Shown here: positions 126 through 14,654 of the stretch, in pieces
Position numbering within the stretch: the first letter of the stretch is position 1
How the letters are laid out: every line of letters begins with the position of its first letter
Assembly (NCBI GenBank): GCA_022799755.1
Contig: JAAWOU010000003.1
Span: forward strand, 1-64,000
Reading direction: 5' to 3'
Length of the DNA: 64,000 nt
From: Lachnospiraceae bacterium
GTDB taxonomy: Bacteria; Bacillota; Clostridia; Lachnospirales; Lachnospiraceae
Notes under the pieces: model-generated
Database searches by the model: none
Told to the model about the DNA's origin: nothing
The model's input: the letters and a program-made list of their open reading frames with translations, nothing else
Translations under genes and position numbers: made by a program

Positions 126-650
126 CTACCGATTCCTAAGCCGTCCTGCCAGTATGTTCAGCATGGCGCCGCACGCTGCGAAACAGATCAGATAGAGCTT
201 GCCGATGCTGCTGGTACAGACTTCCAGCAGACCGCCCACCACCGGGTAGTGCAGGCACACCCTGCCGATGAGCTCCTGGTATCCCACGGGGTTCATGTCG
301 TTCTCCGCGTTGGCGTCTCCCTTGGTGATAAACTCTCCCTCTCCCACACGGTTCTTCACCACACGGTGGGCAATGACCGAATCCCCGCCGTGGAATGCAA
401 TGATGTCACCCTCCGCCACATCCTCCGGCCGCAGGGTCTCCACATAGATCACGCTTCCCACCGGTATCTCCGGCTCCATGCTTCCGCTGACTATGTTGTA
501 GACTTCATATCCTCTCGCGTGGGCCAGCGTAATCGGCAGATAGAATCCGATCACACCAAGCAGGATCAAAGTCCCTATTATGTTGCAAAGGGCGGGAACT
601 AACTTCCCGCCCCTTTTCTTCGTCTCCTGTCCCTGTGGACTACTGCTCAT
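126..650 (-). CDS. sipW: SipW-type (ER/archaeal-type) signal peptidase I
   Basis: Membrane serine peptidase that removes signal peptides at the outer face of the membrane. The nucleophile motif SGSMEP is at about residue 57. The usual Lys general base is replaced by His in VIAHRV at about residue 95, which defines the ER/SipW branch. One membrane segment lies near the N-terminus and a second near the C-terminus. The ATG at 650 overlaps the last codons of the upstream gene and has a purine-rich site; an in-frame start at 680 lies deeper in that gene. It is last of the visible operon, so the two proteins with SipW-type leaders (2477-3747) are its likely substrates, as in SipW/TasA systems (inference). 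Confidence 0.85.
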   Translation of the reverse strand: MSSSPQGQETKKRGGKLVPALCNIIGTLILLGVIGFYLPITLAHARGYEVYNIVSGSMEPEIPVGSVIYVETLRPEDVAEGDIIAFHGGDSVIAHRVVKNRVGEGEFITKGDANAENDMNPVGYQELIGRVCLHYPVVGGLLEVCTSSIGKLYLICFAACGAMLNILAGRLRNR

Positions 651-2463
651 TTTCTTTCTTCCCTTTCCTGCGGGCCGCAATGATCAGCCAGATGCCTGCC
701 CCTGCCAGGGCTGCCACCGCTGCCAGGATACCGGCTTTCGCCGGGGTGGGGAGCATCGCCAGGGGCGTGGCAAGATCCTCCAGGATGGCGTCCGCGATGT
801 TCCTGCCGCCGCCATTGCCGCCATTCCCGTCCCCGTCGTCATCGAATCCTCCCAGCGGAGTCTCCTCCTCGTCCAGGTCCTCATATTCGTCCGGTTCCGC
901 CAGAGGAGGCACCTCGTCCTCCACCTCTACGATCCCGGGCTCCTGCTCAGGCTCTTCCGGCGTCACCACCGTCACGGGGGGAGCCGGTTCTTCCTCTGCG
1001 TCGGGCTCCTGGGGCGCTGCCGGCTGCCCGGGCACCACCACCGTGTTCACGTTGGTCACCGTAGGCACCTCCGTGTAGATGAATGTGAACAGATTCTGGG
1101 AGGCGTCCGCCGCCAGGGTCTTGCCCAGGTTGTAAGCCTGGGGCTGCCAGCCCTCAATGTACTGGTACGCCACCACCGGCTTGTCGCCTACATTTCCATA
1201 GTATACCGCACTGGGGTACAGCTCATTCCCCGCGGTGTCCTGATATGCCACGGTGTAAGCCACCGTCTCGCCCTGTATGCCGTAGGACACTACAAAGTCC
1301 GTGTCACCGGTCACTGTGACGGAGGGGTTGGCCAGTTTGTTTGTGCCGTTGTCCTCGCCGCTGACCCGAAAGCCCTTGCGGTAATACTTGCTGTCCGGCT
1401 GCAGGCTCACGCCTTTCTGAATGTCAAACACCACCTGGGTCCCATAGTGGAGTCCCTTTATCACGCAGACTTCCCCGTTTTCCACGCTGACGCTGGCGCC
1501 TGCGTCGGTAAGCCGCTGTACTACAGAGCTGTCGATGGTTCCCTGGGCGCCTGCAAAGAGCCTTAACGTGTAAGTGTAATCGGCCGAGGAAGCCTCCGCC
1601 GGCTGCGACATGCCAACGGACAGGCACAGGGCCAGCGCAATTCCCAGCGCTTTCGCGCCTTTCTTCTGTTTCTTCCGCTCTCTCAGTCCGAACACGGCCA
1701 AGAGCAGGAAGAGTACGCCGCTGACACCGGCAGCTATGATATAGGGAAGCAGATCGTTCTCGTCTCCCGTGCGCACAATCTGTGTCCTGGCGGAACTGTC
1801 TGCCCCGTCGCCGCCGTTTCCGCCGCTGACGCTACCGTCCGCGGGATCTCCGTTTTCGTCCACCACGCGGTTCACGGTCTGGGTGTTGACGGTGGTGGTA
1901 TCCACCGCAAAGTTCATCTGCAGGCTGGCCAGGGTATTCTGGTAATCATTGCCCTGGGTCTCGCCGTCTAAGGCTACCCGCAGCGTAATCACGGCGCGCT
2001 GTCCCGGATTCAAGGTGTCCAGGTACAGGAAATCCTCCAGGCCGCTGGTGGCCGCTTTCAGGCCGATGCGGCTTCCGTTATTGTCGCCGCCCACGGTGTC
2101 GCTGGTGAACAGGATCTCCCGCGTCCCCGCCGGATCCGTGTAGGCCAGCTCATATTCATATGCGCCGCCCTGGGCTCCGCTGCCTGCGGTTTCCTCCAGG
2201 GACTGCAGTACCTCGTTGGTCATGTACCAGTTGGCTGCAGCGGCATTGTCGTTTTTCAGATTCAGTGTGATGGTGATGTCGTCGCCGGGCTGCAGATCGT
2301 AGACCGCACTGTTCATGTCCGATGCCGTACGGTCTTCCGACAGCTTGCTGTCTTCGGTAAACGTCACGTTCCTCTCTGAGGTCAGCGTCTCCGCCCGGAC
2401 CGTACCCGGGGCGCAGACAAGCATCCCTGCCAAGAGGATGAACGTCAATAATTTTTTCCTCAT
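640..2463 (-). CDS. Two-part surface protein with internal membrane segment, second signal-like sequence and MucBP-like domain
   Basis: 607 residues. A signal peptide (1-24, cleavage near VRA-ET) is followed by a beta-rich extracellular domain to about residue 220. Next come VRTGDEN, a hydrophobic stretch and a basic tail (RERKKQKK), which together resemble a variant sortase-type or membrane anchor. Immediately after is a second signal-like stretch ending PAEASS, a MucBP-like region (YTVAYQDTAGNELYPS onward), an acidic Pro/Glu/Asp-rich stalk and a final membrane helix with basic tail. It therefore looks like two secreted proteins fused in one frame. Strong ribosome site (GGAGGGG). It lies in the pilus operon between a SipW-leader protein and SipW. 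Function unknown; a structural or anchoring role is inferred. Confidence 0.7.
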   Translation of the reverse strand: MRKKLLTFILLAGMLVCAPGTVRAETLTSERNVTFTEDSKLSEDRTASDMNSAVYDLQPGDDITITLNLKNDNAAAANWYMTNEVLQSLEETAGSGAQGGAYEYELAYTDPAGTREILFTSDTVGGDNNGSRIGLKAATSGLEDFLYLDTLNPGQRAVITLRVALDGETQGNDYQNTLASLQMNFAVDTTTVNTQTVNRVVDENGDPADGSVSGGNGGDGADSSARTQIVRTGDENDLLPYIIAAGVSGVLFLLLAVFGLRERKKQKKGAKALGIALALCLSVGMSQPAEASSADYTYTLRLFAGAQGTIDSSVVQRLTDAGASVSVENGEVCVIKGLHYGTQVVFDIQKGVSLQPDSKYYRKGFRVSGEDNGTNKLANPSVTVTGDTDFVVSYGIQGETVAYTVAYQDTAGNELYPSAVYYGNVGDKPVVAYQYIEGWQPQAYNLGKTLAADASQNLFTFIYTEVPTVTNVNTVVVPGQPAAPQEPDAEEEPAPPVTVVTPEEPEQEPGIVEVEDEVPPLAEPDEYEDLDEEETPLGGFDDDGDGNGGNGGGRNIADAILEDLATPLAMLPTPAKAGILAAVAALAGAGIWLIIAARRKGKKENEQ

Positions 2464-2476
2464 CGTCTCTCCCCTC

Positions 2477-3196
2477 CTAGTCCAGACTCAATACGCCGTT
2501 GTCGATGGTCACCCTGCGGCCCCATGCGCTCCAGACGGCATCCTGGGCATTGTGCTCCTGCACCGCATCCACCTTGGCTTCGATGCAGAACCGGGCGCCG
2601 TCATATTCGTAGGTCCTGGTAATCGTGGTATACCCTCCCTGGGTCTGCCTCGTCTCGCTGACCCGGTTGGCTATGCTGCCGTCAATGGTCAGCTTATCCG
2701 CAAACAGCGTCGTCTCGCTCTGGGAAGCCAGGAGCTTATTATAGTAGAGCACGGTTCGTTCCCGGGTAGAAGCCTCCTCGTCCACCAGCCAGTCGCTGCC
2801 GATGTTCACCAGGTTCAGATCGATCAGATCCGGGGACAGGGCAGGGATCTTCTCTCCGTTCTCGTCCATCCAGTATTTGTGAATGCTGACACGGACATAC
2901 TCATTGATGACGCCGCTGTTGTATACGTTGAGTTCCTCCCTGTAGGCCGTTTGAAACTTCAGTTCCTCTCCCTCTCCAAGGAGGCCTTTCAGCAGTTCGC
3001 CCTCCACGGGCGCCCCGTTCTCCACCAGCGTCACGCCGATCTCCTGGAGCTGGATATTGGCCGCATAGTCCTCGGAAAAGTAAGTCAGCGCAGCCCTGGC
3101 TCCACCTATGGAGCTGAAGAGCAGCAGCCCCACCGCCAGCGCAAAGGCAGCTACGGTCGTAGCAGGAGAGGTCAATATCTTCTTAAACTTTTTCAT
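2477..3196 (-). CDS. Secreted protein with SipW-type leader (TasA/camelysin-like position)
   Basis: 239 residues. The N-terminus has a long hydrophobic leader (about 10-36, ending GGARAALTYFSEDY). The aromatic and acidic residues just after the cleavage site are a hallmark of SipW-dependent precursors. The remainder is predicted beta-rich and hydrophilic with no LPxTG motif. The ATG overlaps the stop of the upstream gene in an ATGA arrangement, so translation is probably coupled. I infer a secreted fibre subunit or accessory protein processed by the SipW-type peptidase two genes downstream; sequence alone does not prove a TasA relationship. Confidence 0.65.
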   Translation of the reverse strand: MKKFKKILTSPATTVAAFALAVGLLLFSSIGGARAALTYFSEDYAANIQLQEIGVTLVENGAPVEGELLKGLLGEGEELKFQTAYREELNVYNSGVINEYVRVSIHKYWMDENGEKIPALSPDLIDLNLVNIGSDWLVDEEASTRERTVLYYNKLLASQSETTLFADKLTIDGSIANRVSETRQTQGGYTTITRTYEYDGARFCIEAKVDAVQEHNAQDAVWSAWGRRVTIDNGVLSLD

Positions 3197-3747
3197 CCGT
3201 CAATTCCCCCTTCCATCCCGCCGGTCACCACCTGTACCGACCAGTCCGCGGCCTGGGAACCCAGTATGTTCCCGTCGGCGTCATACTGCACCGGCATGGA
3301 CTCATAGATGACGACTACATTACAATCATCACCCTCCTCGGCATCCTCCGGGAACGCGATCCGGATGTCAAGCTGGCTGGTTTGGGACTTGGACACCGTG
3401 CCGTCCTCCGTGGATGTGATCCCTGGGACCACGGAATTATAGTAATAATATCCGTCCGCACCGGCCTGCCATCCCTCCCCTTCATAGGTCAGGCCATACC
3501 GGCTGCCGCTGAAAGCCCTTGCCCGAACATACACCGGCGCGGTCCCCTCGTTGGTCACTGTCAGGTGCTTGGTGTGCTCCGAGTAGGTCTCCACGATTTC
3601 CGTCTCGTTCCCAAGGTTCACGGCATAGCCGCCGGAGGCGCTGGTGTAGGTGGTGAAATAAGCCCATGCGCTCCCCGCCGTGGCGGTGAGGATCATGCCT
3701 GCCGCCAGAGCGGATACTGCCGTCAAAAAGATATTTCTTCTCTTCAT
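3193..3747 (-). CDS. Small secreted protein with SipW-type leader
   Basis: 184 residues from the ATG at 3747, chosen because AGGGGG lies about 9 nt upstream; an earlier in-frame ATG at 3768 overlaps the preceding stop. The leader is MKRRN plus a hydrophobic core ending AGSAWAYFTTYTSASGG, matching the A-x-A followed by YFT/F pattern typical of SipW-dependent signal peptides (TasA, camelysin and similar). The mature domain contains VTNEGTAPVYVRARAF, the strand pattern usual in this group, and a Tyr-rich YYYYNS. No sorting motif is present. It likely forms or caps an extracellular fibre with the 239-residue protein (inference). Confidence 0.7.
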   Translation of the reverse strand: MKRRNIFLTAVSALAAGMILTATAGSAWAYFTTYTSASGGYAVNLGNETEIVETYSEHTKHLTVTNEGTAPVYVRARAFSGSRYGLTYEGEGWQAGADGYYYYNSVVPGITSTEDGTVSKSQTSQLDIRIAFPEDAEEGDDCNVVVIYESMPVQYDADGNILGSQAADWSVQVVTGGMEGGIDG

Positions 3748-3760
3748 CTCATCCCACCCC

Positions 3761-4939
3761 CTACTCATTCACGTCGGGTGTTCCGGCCGGGATCTGTGTC
3801 CAGTTCCACACCAGGCCCTCCCCGTCGTCCGCATACTCGAAATGGTTCGTGATGGCCGAACCCGTTCTGCCCGTGCCGTTGTATATGTTCCGGAAAGAAG
3901 CGATATTGCTAAAGTCCGCGTCCTCTAAAGTCCCATTGGTCATGGTCAGTGTCTGCGCCGGAGCGCTGTCCGGAGCCGTCTGGTAGGTGGCGCCGGAGTA
4001 AATCTCCGTGACGGTGACCTGGGCTCCCACCGGGATTTTGTCAGCGATCAGCTCGCTCTGAATTCCCGGCGCGGTGAAAGTCAAAGAGACTACATCGCTG
4101 TATACAACCCTGTCCCCGAAGACCGCTTCCACTGCGAAGACGAATGTGGCAGGATTTCCTGTCAGGTACTCGGTCAGCTCCTTGTCGATCCTAAGCGCCG
4201 CGAACCGCTCGCTTAAGGCCGGCTTGGACTCGGCCGCACCCATGCCCCTGAGTTCGTAGATCCACTCGCCCGGATTGGAGGTGGCGGCAGTGCCGTCCAC
4301 GCTCTCTTTGGTGGGCAGCGCCACCAGCTGGGGACTGTAGGTGAAAGTGTATGATTCCGAGTAGGCGACGGTCTGGATTCCGTCAGGCTCAGCGCCGTCC
4401 TCGGCGGGCCGGCGGACCAGGTAATCGGCCTGCTCCAGATCGGCCCCCCTGACCACCATCAGATAGAGACCCGGCTCTAAGTCCGTAAGCTCCACCGCGT
4501 CGCTTCCCTCCGCTTTCACGGCCGTGTAAGCCGGCGCCACAAAGTTCCCCTCCGCAAACACCACGGCCGCGGCCAGTCCGGCCTGTTCCATCCAGATCCG
4601 CGCCGCATCCGTCTCTCCTGCCCTGATGTCCACGTCCAGTCCGGCAAACGTGTCTGTCGTCTCAAAGCGGCAGGCGTCGAATCCCTCCTCTTTCACGGCA
4701 TCCGCCACCTTGTACAGGTCAACGGCCACGTCCGGCGACTGGGCCTCCCCGCTCTCCTCCATTGCCTTGGGCTCCACTTTTACCTGCAGCACACATTTCC
4801 TGGCAAGGTCCAGGGGTTCTGCCGCGCGGGCAGTCCCGCCCAGCGCCGCCATGGCACATCCCGCCGCCATTATGGATGCCAGCGCGAGGCAGGTCAGGCG
4901 GCCCCAGAACCGCCGGCGGCTCTTCCGTTTCATTTTCAT
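3761..4939 (-). CDS. Pilin-like secreted protein without sorting signal
   Basis: 392 residues with a clear signal peptide (basic KRKSRRRFW, hydrophobic core, TARA-AEPLDLA). The mature part has the layout of minor pilins: LTDLEPGLYLMVV resembles the strand and turn of SpaA/Cna-B modules, and a later region contains an ITEIYSGATYQ element like the isopeptide-domain folds of sortase-assembled pili. The C-terminus ends without LPxTG or a membrane helix, so it is either released or incorporated by another route. GGAGG 8 nt before the ATG. It sits between the sortase and the SipW-type proteins. Calling it a minor pilin is an inference from context. Confidence 0.6.
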   Translation of the reverse strand: MKMKRKSRRRFWGRLTCLALASIMAAGCAMAALGGTARAAEPLDLARKCVLQVKVEPKAMEESGEAQSPDVAVDLYKVADAVKEEGFDACRFETTDTFAGLDVDIRAGETDAARIWMEQAGLAAAVVFAEGNFVAPAYTAVKAEGSDAVELTDLEPGLYLMVVRGADLEQADYLVRRPAEDGAEPDGIQTVAYSESYTFTYSPQLVALPTKESVDGTAATSNPGEWIYELRGMGAAESKPALSERFAALRIDKELTEYLTGNPATFVFAVEAVFGDRVVYSDVVSLTFTAPGIQSELIADKIPVGAQVTVTEIYSGATYQTAPDSAPAQTLTMTNGTLEDADFSNIASFRNIYNGTGRTGSAITNHFEYADDGEGLVWNWTQIPAGTPDVNE

Positions 4940-4966
4940 GGACGTTTCCTCCTTTAATCTCGATTC

Positions 4967-5905
4967 TTATTTAAATTCGTTGTCTCGCTTAAATTCCTCC
5001 AGCAGCTCCTCCCCGGTCTTGCCGGAGCGCTTCCTGCCGGACAGGATCAGCATGATTACCAGTGTGACGAACAGCAACGGTATCCCCACTGCAGGTATGA
5101 CGTAATAGGAGGGTATCTTCCGGGCCTCCGCGGCCACTATTACGATCTTTTCTTCCTCGATGTTGTCGATTCTGTGTCCCCGCACCAGCATCCTGTGGGA
5201 ATTGATCCCGTAGGGGGTACAGGTGAGCAGCGTGCAGTAGTCCTTGCCCCGGGTCACGTTCAGCGCCTCCATCTGAGTGGGCTCCACGATGAGGATCTGG
5301 TCCACCTCGTAGGTCAGTGTCCGGTTCAGCACCGTGAGGATGAAAATATCCCCTTTCTCCATCCTGTCTAAGTCCGTGAACAGCTTCGCAGAGGGCAGGC
5401 CCCTGTGAGCCGACATCACACTGTGCCGCCCCTCCCCGCCTATGGGAAGACTGGAGCCCTCCAAATGCCCCACGGCCACATTCAGCACGGGATCGCTGGT
5501 GCCGTGATAGACCGGGAGATTCACGCCGATCTTCGGGATAGAGATATGGCCTATGATGCCGTTCCCTGCCACGTCCAGGACGCTGTAGTACAATTCCTCC
5601 AGCTCCTCATGTTCCGAATACGGCGCGCCCAGTTCGTGCAGCTTTACATTGTATTCCTCCGCCGCGGCGAAGAGGGCCTCATAGTCCGTCTCATCCAACT
5701 CAGCCACTACCTCGTCATAGTTTGCAATGGCCCGGGTCTGGTGGAGGGAGTTCCAGTAGTCGCTGACTGTGGGGTAGAGCATGACGCCCAGCCCTGTCAG
5801 CAGGACCACCGTCAGGAGGATGTTGGAGAGGGTGCCCTTTTTCCTCCCCGTCCTCCGTTTCTTTTCTTTCTTCTTCATCGGTTTCCCGTCAGTCACTCCT
5901 TGCAT
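4967..5905 (-). CDS. Class C (pilus-type) sortase
   Basis: Transpeptidase that joins LPxTG pilins through Lys side chains. The catalytic Cys lies in TLLTC (about residue 229), with His in MSAHRG (about 167) and the conserved Arg in SHRMLVRGHR (about 238). Besides the N-terminal membrane segment there is a C-terminal one (YYVIPAVGIPLLFV), typical of class C enzymes; no DPW/DPF lid motif is obvious. I place the start at 5905 (AGGAA about 10 nt upstream); 5878 is an alternative. The frame is open upstream to 6040, but that part looks non-coding. Its substrates should be the LPSTG pilin (6096-7685) and the LPETG adhesin (7797-12587). Confidence 0.9.
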   Translation of the reverse strand: MQGVTDGKPMKKKEKKRRTGRKKGTLSNILLTVVLLTGLGVMLYPTVSDYWNSLHQTRAIANYDEVVAELDETDYEALFAAAEEYNVKLHELGAPYSEHEELEELYYSVLDVAGNGIIGHISIPKIGVNLPVYHGTSDPVLNVAVGHLEGSSLPIGGEGRHSVMSAHRGLPSAKLFTDLDRMEKGDIFILTVLNRTLTYEVDQILIVEPTQMEALNVTRGKDYCTLLTCTPYGINSHRMLVRGHRIDNIEEEKIVIVAAEARKIPSYYVIPAVGIPLLFVTLVIMLILSGRKRSGKTGEELLEEFKRDNEFK

Positions 5906-5921
5906 CTTCTCTGGATTCCTG

Positions 5922-5945
5922 CCCCGGAAAGAAATGTTTTCCGGG
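5922..5945 (-). other. Hairpin between pilin and sortase genes
   Basis: An 8-bp stem (CCCGGAAA / TTTCCGGG, 7-nt loop) lies in the roughly 190-nt gap between the major pilin stop and the sortase start. There is no U-tract, so it is more likely an mRNA processing or stability element that sets pilin:sortase ratio than a full terminator (inference). Confidence 0.4.
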
Positions 5946-6095
5946 CCGTTTGCTGAGCTTCGCCGGAACCGCCGCATACGCCATGCGGTTTTTCCGTTGC
6001 TCGCCGCACACCACGGGAAGGTGTCAGCCTCGTGCGGCATCCTCCGGGGAGGGGATACGGTCGGCCTGCCCCGGAAGTTTGGTGCTTATTTGATA

Positions 6096-7685
6096 TTAGT
6101 CACGTCCGCTCATGCGCTTCTTGGTGATCAGAAGTACGCCTGCCGCTACTACCAGAATACCGCCTACCACGTAGAAGATCGTGGTACCGATACCGCCGGT
6201 GGAGGGGAGGAGAGCTCCCGTGCTGTTACCGATCGATTCAACATTAACCAAATCTGCAATCTGTGTATCATTGTCACTGCCTGCCGCAATCTCAACCGCT
6301 GTCGTCGTTTCCATCAGGTTAAAGCCGTCGGGAGCCTTTGTCTCCAGCAGATAATAAGTTCCCTTGTCGAGCCCCGCCACAATATTACTCATACCGTCAG
6401 TTCCGGTAGTAACTTTTACAGTACCCTCCGGGAAATTCCCATCCGCTTTCGCTGCCCAGGCATAACCGTTTTCTTCTGTGTAGGTCAGATACTTTGTTGC
6501 ATCAGTAACCGCTATCGTATCAATGATTACGAATTCAGCGCCGCTCAGCTTTTTTGCTGCCTCTATTTCCTCAGCTGTAGGATTCGCTTTATCCTCCACG
6601 TTCGTCAAATCGAACTTTCTTACCTGCAGGGAACCTGTATAAATGTTGTTCTCCTTACCGGGATCCGTCGTATTCGCGTTGTAATTGATGGTAGCCTCGT
6701 TTGTAATTGCTGTGCCTGATGCTACGTCGGCCGTTACTTCTGCGTTATATGTGACAACAATCGTTCCCGGCACCTCATAGTAAAAGTCTTCTGCGGTTGC
6801 AGCGTCTGTCACAGTCTGGGTTGCAGCCCAGGGAATGGTAATTGTGAATTCACGGGTTGCAGTATTCTGCTCTACAGTATAAGTCTTCTCCGCATTTCCA
6901 CTTGTAGCAAGCGAAATCGTCTCGCCATTTACCTTAACTGCCACAGAGCTAAGATCCAATTCCATGCCCTCAGGCATTGTGTCTTTTACGACGTACTGAT
7001 ATACTTTTTCCGTATCGGTTGTCACATTGTCCCCGATTCCTGTGGTCTTAGTGACAAAGTTCTGTGCGTTTTCATACGAAAGCTCATACTGTACGGTCTC
7101 GCCGACAGCGTAGAAGATTTCTTCGACACGCCCGTCCGCATTCAATATATAAGACTTCTTGCCGCCATTGTCTCCCCAGCCGGGTTCGGTATTCTTCTCT
7201 GTGATGACGATATCACCCTCAACTGCTCTCAGCATTGCCGCTGCTCCGCCATTTGCGGTAGAGCTCACATAATAGTAGCCATCACTTAAATCCGTAAAAA
7301 CGACTTCTGCTTTGTCCGCATCCGCAGCAAGTGTTTGCACCGCAGGCGTCTCCAATGCAATGTTATCTGCATTTGCTTTCAGATACGCCACAAGATCAGC
7401 CGCTGCCAAATTGTCGGCCGGAATGTAATATACATTCGCTCCTCCGTTGTCAACTTCCGTGAAAAGAGCTCTGAAATCACCTGTGAGCTTCTTGTCTGCC
7501 GGTCTGGTATAGGACGCAGTACCGCTTTCAGACTCCGTTACATTGAAAATCTTGTACGCCTTATAGGTCGCACCTTTTACAGCGCCCTTGATCGTGATGT
7601 TCGACGCCGATGCGGTGATGCCCATGGCCAGAACCATGATGGCTGCCAAGGCAAACGCAAATAACTTTCTCATTTTACCTTTCAT
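6096..7685 (-). CDS. LPSTG-anchored major pilin, SpaA/FimA-like
   Basis: 529 residues. Signal peptide (basic MRK, hydrophobic core ending ITASASN). A middle isopeptide-type domain includes YQYVVKDTMPEG. A C-terminal Cna-B/SpaA-type domain starts near TGSLQVRKFDL and contains DKGTYYLLETKAPDGFN, the usual E-box region. LPSTG is at 493-497, followed by a membrane helix and KKR tail. Length and domain order fit backbone pilins of Gram-positive sortase-assembled pili. Its RBS is GGAAGG. The gene lies directly upstream of the class C sortase and downstream of the large tip-like adhesin, which is the standard pilus gene set. Confidence 0.88.
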   Translation of the reverse strand: MKGKMRKLFAFALAAIMVLAMGITASASNITIKGAVKGATYKAYKIFNVTESESGTASYTRPADKKLTGDFRALFTEVDNGGANVYYIPADNLAAADLVAYLKANADNIALETPAVQTLAADADKAEVVFTDLSDGYYYVSSTANGGAAAMLRAVEGDIVITEKNTEPGWGDNGGKKSYILNADGRVEEIFYAVGETVQYELSYENAQNFVTKTTGIGDNVTTDTEKVYQYVVKDTMPEGMELDLSSVAVKVNGETISLATSGNAEKTYTVEQNTATREFTITIPWAATQTVTDAATAEDFYYEVPGTIVVTYNAEVTADVASGTAITNEATINYNANTTDPGKENNIYTGSLQVRKFDLTNVEDKANPTAEEIEAAKKLSGAEFVIIDTIAVTDATKYLTYTEENGYAWAAKADGNFPEGTVKVTTGTDGMSNIVAGLDKGTYYLLETKAPDGFNLMETTTAVEIAAGSDNDTQIADLVNVESIGNSTGALLPSTGGIGTTIFYVVGGILVVAAGVLLITKKRMSGRD

Positions 7686-7796
7686 AGTAAAACCTTCCTT
7701 TCTTTTCCCTCAAAATGTTTGTTTTTAGTTCCGTGTTGCTATATTTGGTCTTGCAGTCGGCGCATTTTCACGTCGATTGGAGGCTTCATTTCAGAA

Positions 7797-10700
7797 TCAA
7801 GGCCGACCTCCTTTCTCCTTTTTACGCCTCATGCCGAGACCGTACACAAGACTGACCGCGATTGCCGCGAGACCGCCTAATGTATACATTGTGATGCCGG
7901 GGCCGCCGGTTTCAGGAAGCATAGCGCCGGTACTATTGGCAATTTCAATGGTATACGTCTCTTCCTGCTCATCCTTTGTGATCGTGACCTCTTCCATGTT
8001 CTCTTTCTTGTCAATGCCGCCTGTGGTAACGGTGATGACAAAGGCCTTTGCCGGTAAAATATAGCCGGCCGGCGCTTTCGTTTCCAGAATATGCCAGGTT
8101 CCAAGTCCCAGACTTCTGACGGGTTCATCGGTGGTCGTGTCGCATAACACGCCGGCCGTTCCCTCTACCTCTGCGGACTTCCATGTGTATTCCGTGGTTT
8201 GGCCGTCATCCGCCGTATACGTCACCTTAAATTCCGCACCGTTCAGATAGCGGTTCCCGGCTCCTGTCTCTTTTTTCCGAAGCATCACCGATTTCTCGGC
8301 GGGTACGTTGGCAACTTTCACCTCAATCGAGGTTTCCTCCGTCCCCACGCTTGCCTGGGCTATTATGTCTGTGCCCTGTCTGAGAGTAATCGTCTCAACG
8401 CCCACTTCCAGTTCATACGGCGCTTCCGGCGTCACATATCCTTCCGGCGCGCTTACTTCCTGCAGCCAGTAGGATCCCAGTTCCAGAGGTTCGTCAAAGA
8501 CAAGTCCATTCTCTCCCGATACCTTTGTTCCATCCGGATTTTCGGCTGTTGTCCATATGGATTCGGGATTGGTCTCCCCCTCAAATGTATCCGCGGTCTT
8601 GTTGTAGAGCTTAAATACCGCGCCTTCCAGGAATGTATCCTGATCTCCCTGGTTTGCGGCTGCTGTTTTCAGAAGTCTCACTGTCCTGGTCTTCAGGCAG
8701 TTGGTGATGGTGTAGACATTGATTTCTTTTGCTTGGCCGTCTATGGTCAGTGTTTCAGTGGTCTTTACCGCGTAAACGATATCCGTGTCTGCCTGCTGCG
8801 CTGCCGCTTCATAGCGGTCATCCAGATTCACTTCCGAAACTCTGTACTCTATTGCCTCGGGCAGCTCGGTGACCAGTTCCGTCCACTGCGCTGCCGCGTC
8901 CGATGATCCCTCCGGCGCTCTCAGTGTCACAATGCCATCCGTTCCGTTATCGATGGGTTTCCAGGCATCCTCGGCTCCGTTTCGATATTCGACTTTAAAC
9001 TGAACCTCCTCCGGACGGAATCCCTTTGCGTCGTTCTCATCATCCCATACTTTTACCAGCTTAATGGGGACGATCTTCTCGTTCCTGACGATTATATTTC
9101 CGTCTTCCATCGTGCCCTCTGGTGCACTGGCGCCGGTGTAAATCATGTTGGCGGGAATCTTTGCGTCCTGTGCCACATCACTCGGCGCATTTGTATAGCA
9201 GACTGTCACGGTACCGACTTCTTTGCCGCCTTCCGGCACTGCTTTGTATCCGGCCGGAGCTTTTGTCTCGACTAATGTGTAGGTGCCCCATGGCAAGTTT
9301 TCAAAACCTGTCAGGCCGTTTTCGTCAGAGATTCCCTTGAGCGGATTTCCGTCCCGGTCTGTTACCGTCTGGCCATTCTGTCTCAGGATAAACTCGGCTC
9401 CCTGGATTCCCTGAAGAGGGGTTGACATATCGTCCTGGTCCGCTTTCTTTAGGGAAATGTCGTACAGCAGGCCGCGGACATAGGGAACCGGGAATGCCAG
9501 CGTTGTACCCTTGTCATATGTCAGGGTGGCCGACTCATTTACCCGATAGCTGTGACCTGTGTTTGCACCATTGTGTTCGTCGTCTGCACCGCTGTTCATA
9601 CAGCCGGCACAGCTGTTAAAACCGGCTTTTGTCACATCCAGCCTTACTCTGTAAATCAGTTCGGCTACATTACATCTCCAAACAATTTTTGTGTTTCCCT
9701 CCACGGTTTCAACATAATCAGGATTTCCTTTCACCTTGGGTACCCAAGTCAATCTTCCGCTGCCGGCATCATAACTGGGTGCCTGGTCATAGTCTCCCTT
9801 TACGACGCTGTCATAAATGATGTAGTCTCCCATGTCATCTACGACACTTTTTAAATCAAACTTTGTTACCATTTCCTTCTGCAGAATATCGATAACCGTA
9901 TCCGGCAGTTGAATTGTATTGGATCCCTCCCTTACTTCAGGACCAATCAACATATACTTTCCTGCATTGTCACCTTGCGATAGCTTAATATAAAGTGTTA
10001 TGTTATTTCCTTTTTCAAAGCTAAAGGGGACATTGCTCGCCAATACATTCCCATTCCTGTCTTTCAGAGTTATTGTACATTTTTTATTTAAACTGCTCCC
10101 ATATGCCACACCAACATCGCTTCCGTTTAGCGCAATAATCGTTCCTATCGTAGTGTCATGGTTGTTGTTGGAAGATATGGCGGCAAATTCCGACATTTCA
10201 AAGTAACTGGTAAATTCTTCTTTCATATCCACCGACAGATACACCAGGAACTCATTCTCCACATCCGTGGGAATCACATTCTTCTGAAGTCGGACCTTGT
10301 CATTCTTTGCGGGCTTATCTCCAGCGGTATTTCCCACATATCCCCCGCTTACAATCTGCCACCCGTTCTTTCCCTCCGGCAGCGTCATCTTATCCAGAAT
10401 GCTTCCCTCCGTTTCTTCCGCCACCGTGGCCGCGCTGTTCATGCTGTACACGGCCGCGCCTGTGGTGGAGAAGCTGTCCTGGGTAAATTCAAAGTCGCTT
10501 CCCTCACCGCTTTCCACTACCTGAGCATCGAGAACCTCGGTCCCGTCCTCTGCAAAGTGTACGGCCGACGTGATCTCGCCCTCGTTCACTGTCACCGGGT
10601 TCTGATAGCTGATGCGGATGTCCACCGGTGCCTCCGGCTCTATCTTCTCATTGTCCACCAGGAAAGTGATATCGAAGAACCTGACAAAGGATATCTGGAT

Positions 10701-12587
10701 CTCTTTCTCCGGCGTCTCCGGGTCCATGTTTTCCTGAGCGATGGCCTGGAGCATCTCCTGGTAGCATGCCTCGAACTCGGCAGTGCCTTTCAGAATTTCT
10801 TCCACTTTCAGCGTTGCCCTCTTGGGAATCCGCGCCTCCGCGCCATATGTCACCATGACCGTATAGTCTTCTCCCTGTGCGGTCAAAGTGCGTCCGCCCT
10901 CAGGGAACTGCTCTTGCGCCGCCACCGTGGCCAGTACGGATACACCGTTTTGCACAAATCCGAATCCGGTGCTTTCCTCGGTCTCCTCAACCGTGCCTGC
11001 CAAAGCCACTGTGCCGTCCTCCGCAATGCAAGCCGCCGATGCCGTTCCGTCCTCGCCCATGGCTATCGGGCTCTGATACCTGATCTTGGCCTCTACGGGC
11101 GTCTTGGGCACAACCGCTTCGCCCTCTTCTGTCACAAAGGAAATGCGGAAGAATTTTGCGAAAGTAAGTTCCATCTGCTCTTTGCTCTGGGCCTCTTCCT
11201 CTGTGATCTCGGTGTTGCTGTCTATGGCTGCCAATACTCCCTGGCAATATTTCTCGTATTCCTCCGAACCCTCCGGAATCTCCTGAACATTCAGCGCTGT
11301 CCCCAAGGGAAGCTCCGCGTCCTCGCCGCAGGTGACTTCAACCGTGTAGCCGTTTCCCTCCGCAGTGAGTGCACCCTGGAACCATTCCGGCTCGGGCTCC
11401 TCCGCAATCTGAAAGCACTCCTCTGTATGCACATGCTCTGCGGCTGCCAGCTGTCCGCAGGTGAGGGCGGTCTCAGTTGCATAGCACTCCTCGGTATGGG
11501 TATGTGCGCCCTCTGCCTCAGCGGTCTCGCAGGTCAACTCTTCGGTCCAGGCATAGCACTCGTCCGTGTGCTCATGGATCCCCTCGGGTATCTCACAGAC
11601 GGATTCCTCGCTCCAGGCATAGCATTCGTCCGTGTGCTCATGGCCCTCTTCCTCAGCCTGGCCGCAGCTTAACTCTTCATTCCAGGCATAGCATTCGTCC
11701 GTGTGCTCATGGCCCTCTTCCTCAGCCTGGCCGCAGCTTAACTCTTCATTCCAGGCGTAGCACTCGTCCGTATGCTCGTGGCTCTCCTCGGCCAGTCCGC
11801 AGGTCAGCTCCTCGGTCCAGGCATAGCATTCGTCCGTATGTTCATGCCCTTCCTCCTGGGAAGCGCAGGTCAGATCCCCTTTTGTCTTTGTGTAGCACTC
11901 CGGGCCGTGTCCGTGGCCCTCCCCGGCCGTACAGGTCAGGTCGCCCTTTACTTTCACGTAGCATTCCGGGCTGTGCCGATGCCCTGCCTCGTCCTTTCCG
12001 CAGGTCAGGTCGCCTTTTACTCTGGTATAGCACTCCGGGCTGTGCTGATGGCCGGCCTCGTCCTTTCCGCAGGTCAGGTCGCCCTTTACTTTCTCATAGC
12101 ACTCTTCGCCGTGCTCATGCTCGGTTCCCTCAGCCTCACAGATCAGGTCGCCCTTTACTTTCTCATAGCACGCCTCGCCGTGCTCATGGCCCTGGGATTC
12201 CTCCTGGCCGCAGACCAGCGTCTCCTGCTCCGTGAAGCACGCGTCCTCATGTACATGGAGCTCTGCCGTTATCTCGGGCAGGGTGCACACCAGCTCCCCC
12301 TCCTCCCCATAGCAGCTCTGGTCATGGGTGTGGATGACGTAGTCCGCCTGGCCGCAGATAAGCTCCCCGTCACTGCCCTGGCACTGCTCCGTGTGCCGGT
12401 GTATCTCCGGCTGACAGCTGAGCGCTCTCTCCCCCTCATCCGCGGTGAGCGCCTGGCCGCTCAGGGTCAGCGCCGCCACCGTCCCCGCCGTCACCAGCAG
12501 GGCCAGGCTCAGAAACGCCGTCAGCCAGATCTTATATTTCCTCTGCTCCCCCAAGATTCTTGCAGCCTGTTTCCTCAAAGATTCCAT
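7797..12587 (-). CDS. Giant LPETG adhesin with His/Cys repeats and Cna-B/SpaA modules (probable pilus tip)
   Basis: 1596 residues. An N-terminal membrane/signal segment (about 18-42) is followed by 15 copies of H-x-H-x3-C (residues 63-391), each paired with a downstream Cys. Next come two similar domains with GxxYTVxVTxG starts (about 400-700) and a large domain to about 1030. Cna-B/SpaA modules follow, recognisable from LVETKAPAGYKA, VKVWDDENDAKGFRPEEV, LQEVSAPEGYVT and ILETKAPAGYIL. LPETG is at 1557-1561, then a membrane helix and RRKKEK tail. It is larger than the pilin and precedes it in the operon, so a tip adhesin is inferred. RBS GGAAGGAG 8 nt before the ATG. Ligand and metal binding are unknown. 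Confidence 0.85.
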   Translation of the reverse strand: MESLRKQAARILGEQRKYKIWLTAFLSLALLVTAGTVAALTLSGQALTADEGERALSCQPEIHRHTEQCQGSDGELICGQADYVIHTHDQSCYGEEGELVCTLPEITAELHVHEDACFTEQETLVCGQEESQGHEHGEACYEKVKGDLICEAEGTEHEHGEECYEKVKGDLTCGKDEAGHQHSPECYTRVKGDLTCGKDEAGHRHSPECYVKVKGDLTCTAGEGHGHGPECYTKTKGDLTCASQEEGHEHTDECYAWTEELTCGLAEESHEHTDECYAWNEELSCGQAEEEGHEHTDECYAWNEELSCGQAEEEGHEHTDECYAWSEESVCEIPEGIHEHTDECYAWTEELTCETAEAEGAHTHTEECYATETALTCGQLAAAEHVHTEECFQIAEEPEPEWFQGALTAEGNGYTVEVTCGEDAELPLGTALNVQEIPEGSEEYEKYCQGVLAAIDSNTEITEEEAQSKEQMELTFAKFFRISFVTEEGEAVVPKTPVEAKIRYQSPIAMGEDGTASAACIAEDGTVALAGTVEETEESTGFGFVQNGVSVLATVAAQEQFPEGGRTLTAQGEDYTVMVTYGAEARIPKRATLKVEEILKGTAEFEACYQEMLQAIAQENMDPETPEKEIQISFVRFFDITFLVDNEKIEPEAPVDIRISYQNPVTVNEGEITSAVHFAEDGTEVLDAQVVESGEGSDFEFTQDSFSTTGAAVYSMNSAATVAEETEGSILDKMTLPEGKNGWQIVSGGYVGNTAGDKPAKNDKVRLQKNVIPTDVENEFLVYLSVDMKEEFTSYFEMSEFAAISSNNNHDTTIGTIIALNGSDVGVAYGSSLNKKCTITLKDRNGNVLASNVPFSFEKGNNITLYIKLSQGDNAGKYMLIGPEVREGSNTIQLPDTVIDILQKEMVTKFDLKSVVDDMGDYIIYDSVVKGDYDQAPSYDAGSGRLTWVPKVKGNPDYVETVEGNTKIVWRCNVAELIYRVRLDVTKAGFNSCAGCMNSGADDEHNGANTGHSYRVNESATLTYDKGTTLAFPVPYVRGLLYDISLKKADQDDMSTPLQGIQGAEFILRQNGQTVTDRDGNPLKGISDENGLTGFENLPWGTYTLVETKAPAGYKAVPEGGKEVGTVTVCYTNAPSDVAQDAKIPANMIYTGASAPEGTMEDGNIIVRNEKIVPIKLVKVWDDENDAKGFRPEEVQFKVEYRNGAEDAWKPIDNGTDGIVTLRAPEGSSDAAAQWTELVTELPEAIEYRVSEVNLDDRYEAAAQQADTDIVYAVKTTETLTIDGQAKEINVYTITNCLKTRTVRLLKTAAANQGDQDTFLEGAVFKLYNKTADTFEGETNPESIWTTAENPDGTKVSGENGLVFDEPLELGSYWLQEVSAPEGYVTPEAPYELEVGVETITLRQGTDIIAQASVGTEETSIEVKVANVPAEKSVMLRKKETGAGNRYLNGAEFKVTYTADDGQTTEYTWKSAEVEGTAGVLCDTTTDEPVRSLGLGTWHILETKAPAGYILPAKAFVITVTTGGIDKKENMEEVTITKDEQEETYTIEIANSTGAMLPETGGPGITMYTLGGLAAIAVSLVYGLGMRRKKEKGGRP
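11415..12401 (-). repeat. 15 protein-level His/Cys repeats in the adhesin
   Basis: Fifteen H-x-H-x3-C motifs (HRHTEQC, HTHDQSC, HVHEDAC, HEHGEAC, HEHGEEC, HQHSPEC, HRHSPEC, HGHGPEC, five HEHTDEC, HTHTEEC, HVHTEEC) occur at roughly 20-26-residue intervals. Each is followed about ten residues later by another Cys, usually in LTCG or LSCG. The His-His-Cys-Cys pattern would suit a small metal-binding unit, or Cys pairs forming disulfides outside the cell. Confidence 0.85.
11613..11750 (-). repeat. Exact 69-bp tandem duplication inside the adhesin
   Basis: Two head-to-tail units of 69 bp (11613-11681 and 11682-11750) appear identical at the DNA level, whereas the flanking repeats are diverged. 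Each unit encodes one 23-residue repeat, so gain or loss keeps the frame. This suggests recent duplication and a site for length variation. Confidence 0.8.
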
Positions 12588-12620
12588 TGTGCCGTCTCCT
12601 TCCTTGTATCTGCAAAACTG

Positions 12621-13325
12621 TTAGTTTATCAGTCCCATCTCCCGCACCGGCCATATCCGGAACGTGATCTTTCCCACCACGCTGTCCTCGCTGATGCAGC
12701 CCACCGACCTGCTCCGGCTGTCTACGCTGGTGGCCCTGTGGTCTCCCATGACGAAGCATTTCCCGTCCGGCACCTGGCAGGGCAGCTCTATGTCGCACTG
12801 TCCCAGGGCTTTCTGCGCCAGGTAGGGCTCGTCGACGGGCTCCCCGTTGACGTATACGTTCCCCTCCCCGTCTATGTCCACCCAGTCCCCGGCGGTGGCG
12901 ATGACCCGCTTCACCAGGATGCTGTTGTTGTAGTAGAACGCCACCACGTCGCCGATCCGGAATTTTGCGCCGGACACTGCCACCACGATATCCCCGTCCT
13001 GTAGGGTCTGTGTCATGGAGGTGCCGTCTATCCGAAGCACCGGCAGGAACAGTACCGCGGTCAGCACCGCTGCCGCCGCTACCACCAGCAGAGAGAAGCT
13101 TGTGCTGCGCAGGACCTTTCTGTACCGGCTCTTGTGCCGGGTCTTGTGCAGTTCCTCCTCCAGCTGTTCCAGGGTGGGGGCTTGCGCTTTCCGCTCCCCG
13201 GCTGTTCCCTGCTGCGGTTCCCTGCTCAGCTCCTCCAGCCCTATCTCGTCCAGGTCGTACACGTATATCTCCGCCATGGATGCCTGTTCTCTTCCGTCAG
13301 GCCGGCCCTTACGTCTGCGCTTCAT
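12621..13325 (-). CDS. lepB: Signal peptidase I (LepB family) at the head of the pilus operon
   Basis: 234 residues. A long charged cytoplasmic N-terminus (about 70 residues) is followed by one membrane helix. The Ser nucleophile is in GTSMTQTL (Ser103), the catalytic Lys in SILVKRVIATAGD (Lys139), and the GDHRATSVDSR box near 190. This is the bacterial Ser/Lys type, unlike the Ser/His enzyme at the other end of the operon. The ATG at 13325 has AGAGGA 8 nt upstream; a later in-frame ATG exists at 13277. It is first in the operon and would be the first gene read from the invertible promoter. Dedicated signal peptidases are known in pilus loci, so processing of the large pilins is inferred. Confidence 0.88.
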   Translation of the reverse strand: MKRRRKGRPDGREQASMAEIYVYDLDEIGLEELSREPQQGTAGERKAQAPTLEQLEEELHKTRHKSRYRKVLRSTSFSLLVVAAAAVLTAVLFLPVLRIDGTSMTQTLQDGDIVVAVSGAKFRIGDVVAFYYNNSILVKRVIATAGDWVDIDGEGNVYVNGEPVDEPYLAQKALGQCDIELPCQVPDGKCFVMGDHRATSVDSRSRSVGCISEDSVVGKITFRIWPVREMGLIN

Positions 13326-13354
13326 GTAAAAGTTCCTCTGTCCTGTCCCGGAGA

Positions 13355-13380
13355 TACCTCATAATAAACATTACGAGGTA
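13355..13380 (+). repeat. Left recombination site (IRL)
   Basis: Outer arms TACCTC and GAGGTA are inverted to each other. Between them lies a centre containing ATAATAAACATTACG, the exact reverse complement of the centre of the right site. Arm-spacer-arm geometry of this size is what tyrosine recombinases bind. Confidence 0.85.
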
Positions 13381-13577
13381 ATTTTGAGGGGAATATAAAG
13401 TTTTCGTTCCAAAACCCATTTTCATTCTCTATTTAGACGTATCTTTTGACTTGAAGTTTGGTATAGTGTTTTTACAGGCAGCACAAGAGCAGCCATACCT
13501 TTATTCAATGGCTGAACGGAAAGTTCCTATATATCAGAAATACTTTGGAAAATACTTTGGAAAATGATTCTCAGATA

Positions 13578-13606
13578 TTGAATTTCTAAAACGGAAAGCG
13601 TATAAT
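13578..13606 (+). promoter_or_regulatory. Sigma-A promoter inside the invertible segment, now facing right
   Basis: -35 TTGAAT (13578-13583), 17-nt spacer, perfect -10 TATAAT (13601-13606). Transcription would start near 13613 and run through the right site into the 3' end of the recombinase gene, antisense to it. After inversion it would drive lepB and the pilus genes. Confidence 0.8.
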
Positions 13607-13635
13607 GAATCAGGACTAAAGGTTATTTTCAGGAG

Positions 13636-13661
13636 TACCGCGTAATGTTTATTATGCGGTA
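13636..13661 (-). repeat. Right recombination site (IRR)
   Basis: Arms TACCGC and GCGGTA flank CGTAATGTTTATTAT, the exact reverse complement of the left-site core. Left and right sites differ by one base in each inner arm position. The site overlaps the stop codon and last three codons of the recombinase gene. Confidence 0.85.
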
Positions 13662-14509
13662 TTTTCATTGTACAGCACCAGCCCCAGGCCGTCCAGGCGC
13701 CGCTCCTGCATCTCGCAGCTCATGAGAGTGTAGATGCGGGTGGTGTTGATATTGGAATGACCCAGCAGGTCAGCCAGATGGCAGATATCTTTTTCCATAT
13801 TATAGTAAGTAACCGCAAAGAGATGGCGGAGATTGTGCGGGAAGACTTTCGCCTCCTCCACGCCGGCCTCCCGGCACAGGGCTTTCATGGAATGGAGGAT
13901 GTTGCTGCGGTCCATGGGTCTGCCGCCTCGGGTCACGAAGACGCTGCCTGTCCGGATCCCAGCCGCTTTCGCATAGCGCTTCAGCTCCCGGCACAGATCC
14001 AGCGGCAGGATCACCGTTCGGGTCTTTCCCTTGAGAGATACCGTGGCCCGTCTGGTGTGCAGAGCGTCCACGGTGACAAAGGGCAGCTCGCTGACCCGGA
14101 TGCCGGTGGCGCAGATGGCCTGCATGACCAGGCACAATCTCTGGTTACCCTTGCGTCTCGCCGTCTCCACAAGGCGCATGTACTCTTCCCTGGACAGCTC
14201 CAGCTCCTTAGAGCGGAAGACGGCTTTCTGAACCTTGAACGTGCGCACCGCGCATTCGGGCCGCCCTAAGAAGCGCAGAAAGCTGTTCACCCCGGCCAGC
14301 ATGGAATTGATGCTGGCCACTGTGTAGGTCTCCGCCAGATGCCTCTTGTAGCGGATGGCAGCCTCCTTTGTGACAGATTGCCCGCCCAGAAAGGCAATGA
14401 AAGCCTTTGCGTCACGCAGGTATTTTTCGATGGTGGCTCTGCTTTTTTCCTCTGCCTGCAGCCTCTCTCTGAATTGTTCTATCGCAGTCTTATCTTTTGT
14501 GAATTCCAT
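13652..14509 (-). CDS. Tyrosine recombinase, probable invertase of the pilus switch
   Basis: 285 residues from the ATG at 14509. The frame is open further upstream to 15493, but that overlaps sipL and is not coding. It has an N-terminal SAM-like core-binding domain (about 1-95) and a catalytic domain with the full set: Arg138 (ATGIRVSEL), Lys160 (SLKGK), His225 and Arg228 (HNLRH), His251 (LLGHSN) and Tyr260 (RIYTLM). The size matches stand-alone XerC/D-like or invertase-type enzymes rather than phage integrases with an arm-binding domain. No phage or transposon genes flank it. Its last codons lie inside the right inverted repeat, a common arrangement for cis-acting DNA invertases. It has its own promoter at 14573-14602. 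Confidence 0.9.
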   Translation of the reverse strand: MEFTKDKTAIEQFRERLQAEEKSRATIEKYLRDAKAFIAFLGGQSVTKEAAIRYKRHLAETYTVASINSMLAGVNSFLRFLGRPECAVRTFKVQKAVFRSKELELSREEYMRLVETARRKGNQRLCLVMQAICATGIRVSELPFVTVDALHTRRATVSLKGKTRTVILPLDLCRELKRYAKAAGIRTGSVFVTRGGRPMDRSNILHSMKALCREAGVEEAKVFPHNLRHLFAVTYYNMEKDICHLADLLGHSNINTTRIYTLMSCEMQERRLDGLGLVLYNENTA

Positions 14510-14572
14510 TTCCCGGCCTCCTGTCCTCCTCTTGTTCATTTGAAAGAAAATATATGACTGTTCGGATTTCTC

Positions 14573-14616: not shown

Positions 14617-14654
14617 AATCCCCGGACCGTACACATCTGCACAGTCCGGGGATT
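14617..14654 (-). terminator. Rho-independent terminator of the sipL-like gene
   Basis: An 11-bp stem (AATCCCCGGAC / GTCCGGGGATT) is followed on the minus strand by TTTTTC, 20 nt beyond the sipL-like stop. It separates sipL from the recombinase. Confidence 0.85.

Follow-up and report, generated by a model that had tools for sequence, protein, structure and literature searches.

A gut Lachnospiraceae operon carrying sortase-pilus genes together with a SipW/BsaA-like secretion set and two signal peptidases

Gene content and layout of the locus

The window analysed here, a stretch of 64,000 nucleotides (nt) starting at base 1 of a contig (JAAWOU010000003.1, designated C108), comes from the genome of an Acetatifactor-like gut Lachnospiraceae bacterium whose assembly (GCA_022799755.1) is fragmented into 146 contigs. 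Nine co-directional minus-strand genes, close-packed from 13325 to 126, lie behind a recombinase gene and an invertible-promoter element and encode, in this order, the signal peptidase LepB, a large tip protein, a SpaH-type pilin, a class C sortase (SrtC), a DUF5979 protein, SL191, SL239, a protein of 607 amino acids (aa) and the signal peptidase SipW, as shown in Table 1; SL191, SL239, FusA and FusB are names coined in this analysis. All the parts named in an earlier note on this DNA were found, namely LPxTG pilins and a class C sortase between two peptidases of different classes, and separate proteins with SipW-type leaders. The gene content, linkage and conservation of this array are solid.

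Table 1. Features of the operon, its promoter element and the contig end, in window coordinates.
Feature	Position	Strand	Basis
XerA/XerD-like tyrosine recombinase, presumed invertase of the adjoining switch	13652..14545	-	Pfam Phage_integrase 90 bits; NCBIfam XerA_Arch 140 bits, below its cut-off
Inverted repeat arm, recombinase side, TACCGCATAATAAACATTACGCGGTA	13629..13662	.	matching repeat in L022 (G026) and L020 (G047)
Promoter-like site TTGAAT-N17-TATAAT, within invertible segment, directed away from operon (OFF)	13578..13606	+	top scan score, 10/12
Inverted repeat arm, operon side, TACCTCATAATAAACATTACGAGGTA	13354..13387	.	repeat search
LepB, type I signal peptidase, Ser/Lys	12621..13325	-	TIGR02227 118 bits, cut-off 47
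Large tip-type pilin, LPETG anchor, 1596 aa	7797..12587	-	SpaA/Cna_B domains, ~15 His-x-His-x3-Cys repeats
SpaH/EbpB-type major pilin, isopeptide D2 domain, LPSTG anchor	6096..7685	-	NF033902 107 bits, cut-off 95; TIGR04226 42 bits
Class C sortase (SrtC), TLLTC active site	4967..5905	-	NF033745 271 bits, cut-off 160; start codon uncertain, open reading frame opens at 6040
DUF5979 protein, secreted, without wall anchor	3761..4939	-	PF19407
SL191, SipW-type leader, distant BsaA relative	3193..3750	-	TIGR04090 below cut-off
SL239, SipW-type leader, distant BsaA relative	2477..3196	-	TIGR04090 below cut-off
607-aa FusA-FusB fusion	640..2463	-	separate genes in most relatives; alignments
SipW-type signal peptidase, Ser/His	126..651	-	TIGR02228 90 bits
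Contig end, exact 73-nt overlap with contig C37	1..73	.	operon continues on C37; L046 shows matching order

The two signal peptidases belong to different classes. LepB, which opens the operon as had been proposed, matches the signal peptidase I model TIGR02227 and has its Ser/Lys dyad in GTSM and VKRV, while SipW has Ser and His in SGSMEP and AHRV, matches TIGR02228 above cut-off and scores below cut-off for the Bacillus-specific SipW model NF046067; its start was moved from TTG 680 to ATG 651. The active-site Ser and His are invariant in all 101 linked SipW proteins, and across linked loci LepB keeps its Lys in 52/52 and its Ser in 49/52. The LepB gene of relatives sits near the start or else 3' of SrtC; in one close relative (L020:14500-14650) it is apparently lost, a short C-terminal remnant lying between the switch and the tip gene of an otherwise intact operon.

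For the pilus half, the sortase and the major pilin score above the cut-offs of their family models, TIGR04226 and the LPXTG models included, and the tip protein carries three SpaA domains, with Cna_B above and a GBS104-like Ig domain below cut-off. The tip repeats (window 11400-12450), about 15 units of 23 residues with the motif His-x-His-x3-Cys-Tyr, number 0 to 26 copies among relatives; they might bind metal, and their number may change through recombination. Exactly two LPxTG proteins (tip and shaft) were observed in 66 of the 78 loci with enough upstream sequence, the other 12 having one or none, and a third, basal LPxTG pilin was found at none of these 78. Such an LPxTG basal pilin is usual in class C sortase pili, though not obligatory in every known pilus.

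The SipW half begins after the sortase. SipW-type leaders are visible in SL191 (AWAYFTTY) and SL239 (ARAALTYFSE) and are conserved in the family, the leader model TIGR04088 being matched by 2 of 22 SL191 members, weakly. The BsaA model TIGR04090 gives the two window proteins 15.7–17.6 bits, under its 60-bit cut-off, and also matches 18/22 SL191 homologues and 21/22 SL239 homologues below cut-off. Searches by sequence of SL191, SL239 and FusA against solved structures gave no meaningful match, and none to TasA for SL191 or SL239. The predicted structure of SL239 (mean predicted local distance difference test, pLDDT, 78) gave generic beta-sandwich matches in Foldseek, TasA not being among the 50 matches listed; FusA is a predicted beta-sandwich of moderate confidence (mean pLDDT 69), with TasA (5of1) among its matches, weakly (E 2.9e-3; template-modelling score, TM, 0.37). 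Since the BsaA matches lie below cut-off and the structure matches are weak or generic, TasA-like is a reasonable label for the system, though unproven protein by protein. The 607-aa protein is FusA joined to FusB; the FusA part has a C-terminal IVRTGD, then a membrane helix and a basic tail, its homologues keep an xVKTGD or xVRTGD signal ahead of the same two elements, and FusB is secreted and keeps a C-terminal membrane helix.

Probable transcription unit, contig junction and putative invertible promoter

At and after the junction of the two halves, the genes are separated by gaps of 13–27 nt or overlap. The SrtC-DUF5979 gap is 27 nt in the window, against a median of 25 nt over 99 loci; the SL191-SL239 overlap is 4 nt in the window and in relatives alike, and that of the 607-aa gene with SipW is about 11 nt (FusB-SipW in relatives, 11 nt). 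All 16 terminator-like sites returned by the scan are on the plus strand, with 14.0 ± 3.7 expected for both strands; a terminator between the halves is thereby rejected, and the 27-nt gap is too short for a promoter; a promoter and terminator splitting the array, which the earlier note had named as evidence against a single operon, were thus not seen. The SpaH-SrtC gap of ~190 nt, when folded, was no more stable than its shuffles (z -0.27). Co-expression of the whole array from one start is likely. Farther out, a minus-strand terminator-like hairpin with TTTTT (window 14617-14654) lies between the recombinase gene and the upstream LysM-domain gene.

Because the window starts at contig base 1, it does not reach the operon end. 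Another contig of this genome, C37, opens with an exact 73-nt overlap to the window end; next on it come an AP2-like gene (PF00847, 29 bits, under the cut-off), a class B sortase above cut-off for TIGR03064 and a BTAD-domain regulator, and the gene order 3' of SipW in the relative L046 matches this series. As overlap and gene order agree, we infer that C108 joins C37. In a second operon copy of the same genome (C127), SipW is likewise followed by a class B sortase (171 bits), and among relatives such a sortase lies downstream in 40/84 loci. The Ser/His enzyme that had been placed at the far end of the operon is therefore present without being its last gene, as the contig overlap and the relatives show further genes.

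The switch consists of 34-nt inverted repeats, 85% complementary, which enclose 241 nt between the recombinase gene and LepB. The best promoter-like site of the scan lies within this segment and is directed toward the recombinase, away from the operon, so the assembly shows the OFF state. Repeats, recombinase and promoter are all kept in identical orientation in two relatives (L020 and L022), where much of the remaining segment is divergent; the three switch loci also share most of a second block within the segment (window 13430-13480; AAGTCAAAAGATACGTCTAAA and surrounding bases), which would lie upstream of the promoter in the ON state, where it could be a candidate activator site. Repeats of at least 18 nt with a Xer-like recombinase nearby, the criterion of the switch survey, were found in the window, L020, L022, L011 and L016, the last two having different repeat pairs next to a similar recombinase, and L010 has matching repeats without a recombinase. 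Most loci with upstream sequence have no switch, which rules it out as a family-wide trait, and the window-type switch, found in just two relatives, is by these comparisons lineage-specific. Of the proposed co-expression under one phase switch, the contiguous array, recombinase, repeats and promoter were thus recovered, whereas the promoter is OFF here and the switch is confined to one lineage. A second inverton occurs in the same genome (G000; C125:5058-6211, L153), with a paralogous recombinase of 65% identity, similar repeats and a different core; it lies near a gene for a serine-rich-repeat surface protein (SLSDSLSD...), and the same arrangement was observed on contig C16 of G026 (L154).

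Conservation, co-inheritance and stand-alone forms

An SL239 profile was scanned against 84,980 genomes, giving 285 relatives of which 80 were kept, and loci were counted after removal of known duplicates. The relatives are mostly Lachnospiraceae, such as Acetatifactor, Dorea, Roseburia, Hominifimenecus and others; the remainder include Oscillospiraceae, Acutalibacter, Gemmiger, Solobacterium and three Adlercreutzia isolates (Actinomycetota). SL191 accompanies SL239 in 99/99 loci and FusA in 99/101, with SrtC upstream in 94 of 97 testable loci and SipW downstream in 92 of 97; the halves are thus clearly not unlinked in all relatives, which the earlier note had named as a refuting observation. 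The order SrtC, DUF5979, SL191, SL239, FusA, FusB, SipW is almost fixed across ~100 loci in several taxa, the recurrence for which that note had proposed a survey. A same-strand SipW lies 3-8 kb downstream in 24 of the genus's 26 testable class C sortase clusters, and several genomes harbor two to four such SrtC-SipW clusters each. The fragmented assembly and the position of the window at a contig end could point to an assembly artefact or to the chance adjacency of unrelated operons, an explanation made extremely improbable by the matching order in ~100 loci of several taxa, isolate genomes included; chance adjacency is ruled out by this survey. One locus (L018/L050:1-8400; UBA7188, G059 C81) keeps SrtC, DUF5979, SL191 and an SL239 with an aberrant end, with FusA, FusB and SipW missing.

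The halves also share their evolutionary distances. SrtC tree distances correlate with those of SL191, SL239, FusA and SipW at 0.53-0.64, against a permutation maximum of 0.22, and the within-half comparison of SL239 or FusA with SipW gave 0.50, no higher than the cross-half values of SrtC. Species history is a contributor to the cross-half correlation. As same-genome paralogues still correlate at 0.62-0.82 (n=13 pairs), duplication or movement probably involved entire clusters at a time.

Each half, on the other hand, also occurs without the other, which agrees with the earlier note's description of the systems as normally separate. More distant SL239-FusA-FusB sets sit in loci without a class C sortase. 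In several of these, SipW is present in one or two copies, along with a large secreted protein, which mostly has VWA or SpaA domains, and additional SipW-leader proteins, and the stand-alone loci include a BsaA-family protein at 182 bits for TIGR04090; because the SipW half occurs alone beside such true BsaA-family genes, the operon joins two systems that exist separately. Class C sortases were detected in 63 of 391 sampled Clostridia genomes, and FusA adjoins one only in the present genome and in G268, so the composite locus is a specific combination and the general form of neither system. An intermediate locus (L144; G064 contig C16) begins with SipW, followed by a 1173-aa VWA/LRR protein, SL191, SL239, FusA and FusB; the 1173-aa protein matches the DUF5979-protein profile, with no class C sortase in view and a contig end nearby.

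These stand-alone forms bear on the possibility that two separate structures are made together, a class C pilus and a BsaA-like SipW-dependent matrix fibre, which one operon and one switch would express jointly for an adhesion or biofilm programme, without physical mixing. The SipW half of other genomes stands alone with its own adhesin, BsaA genes and sometimes a class B sortase, class C pili lack the SipW half in most Clostridia sampled, and BsaA assembly in Clostridium perfringens is sortase-independent (PMC7395162), all of which suits two separate products. The near-invariant order and tree agreement in ~100 loci, however, exceed what co-regulation needs, and the large VWA adhesin and extra BsaA genes seen in stand-alone loci are absent from the SipW half of the composite locus, as though this half relied on the pilus; two unmixed structures are accordingly a real possibility that is held on the doubtful side of even.

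Interpretation and comparison with known systems

The favoured explanation, to which about an even chance is given, is a single phase-switched surface-appendage operon that would combine two assembly systems and use them together. Inversion would turn the promoter toward LepB and produce a single transcript; LepB would cut ordinary Sec leaders off the pilins, the DUF5979 protein, FusA and FusB, while SipW would cut the special leaders off SL191 and SL239. With the large tip protein in the lead, the SpaH-type pilin would be polymerised by SrtC; SL191 and SL239 would assemble non-covalently like BsaA/TasA-like subunits, and FusA, carrying a VKTGD/VRTGD-type signal in place of LPxTG, would be anchored in the wall as an inferred base, probably through the class B sortase. 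The putative base pilin of C. perfringens VR-10B, for comparison, bears a sortase B signal (PMC8088525). As most loci are without a third LPxTG protein to serve as basal pilin, the SipW half may provide the sortase pilus with its base or sheath and not form a second, unrelated product, and a physical structure shared by both halves is plausible. The most specific form of this proposal, a hybrid filament in which a sortase-polymerised pilus has a base or sheath of non-covalent BsaA/TasA-like subunits and is made with two signal peptidases and two sortases, all-or-none by inversion, is considered rather unlikely.

Several observations weigh against the favoured explanation. BsaA polymers of C. 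perfringens form in the absence of the adjacent srtB (PMC7395162), so a SipW fibre does not have to rely on sortases; a TGD signal is present on FusA in stand-alone loci too, and that signal is hence not pilus-specific; 44/84 loci have no adjoining class B sortase; the structure matches of SL239 and FusA are weak, all with E of at least 0.001; and all three assemblies with the switch (window, L020 and L022) are in one orientation, OFF.

The SipW half might instead be assembly machinery, with SL191, SL239, FusA and FusB acting as extracellular chaperones or scaffolds for pilin polymerisation, like SipA or CapP. A signal-peptidase-like protein essential to pilus polymerisation is on record in streptococcal SipA, an inactive peptidase homologue (PMC4049620), as is a chaperone-like factor for TasA/CalY filaments in Bacillus cereus CapP (PMC13082335), and the kept membrane helix of FusB would suit such a role; yet SL239-FusA-FusB occur in stand-alone loci without any class C pilin to assist, and SipW and LepB, unlike SipA, retain their active-site residues, which leaves a machinery role very unlikely.

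Sortase pili and SipW/TasA-type fibres are usually studied apart. The presence of both in a conserved operon of common gut Clostridia, and of one genus of actinobacteria, suggests that the two were combined and retained together by selection. SL191, SL239, FusA, FusB and the DUF5979 protein form a defined set to which no role in pili has been assigned so far, and the question of mixed filaments becomes testable in cultured isolates with the operon, e.g., Hominifimenecus microfluidus CLA-AA-H215 and Dorea sp. 5-2. No description of the composite operon was found in the open-access literature searched, which is weak evidence of novelty as subscription papers lay outside the search. An inverton for such an operon was not reported in the inversion literature searched, and the inversion papers searched by term have no mention of sortases, pili or Lachnospiraceae.

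The switch resembles the invertons of gut bacteria in its short inverted repeats, the promoter between them, the adjoining tyrosine recombinase and the surface-structure operon downstream, and differs in being known here from assembled sequence in one orientation. The tapA-sipW-tasA operon of Bacillus and sipW-tasA/calY of B. cereus likewise have a Ser/His SipW with special-leader substrates, which form non-covalent fibres there, whereas they have no sortase, and SL191 and SL239 remain under the TIGR04090 cut-off. The sipW-bsaABCRSD locus of C. perfringens (PMC7395162) similarly joins SipW to BsaA-family substrates, further secreted proteins and an adjoining srtB; its expression is bimodal and requires a two-component system, DNA inversion not being reported there, and unlike the present operon it has no class C sortase or pilin genes and its srtB is dispensable for the BsaA polymer. 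The pilus loci of Streptococcus pyogenes and C. perfringens VR-10B share a signal-peptidase gene and a class B sortase in the pilus operon, whereas no SipW half is reported for them. The class C sortase pili of the SpaA/SpaH type (Corynebacterium diphtheriae, Enterococcus Ebp) have the class C sortase, the SpaH/EbpB-type isopeptide shaft pilin, the large Cna/SpaA tip protein and the LPxTG signals in common with the present operon, and signal peptidase genes occur in some of their operons; in contrast to them, most loci here are without the third LPxTG base pilin, the sortase is followed by six more genes, those of the SipW half, and a class B sortase and a BTAD regulator lie downstream in many loci.

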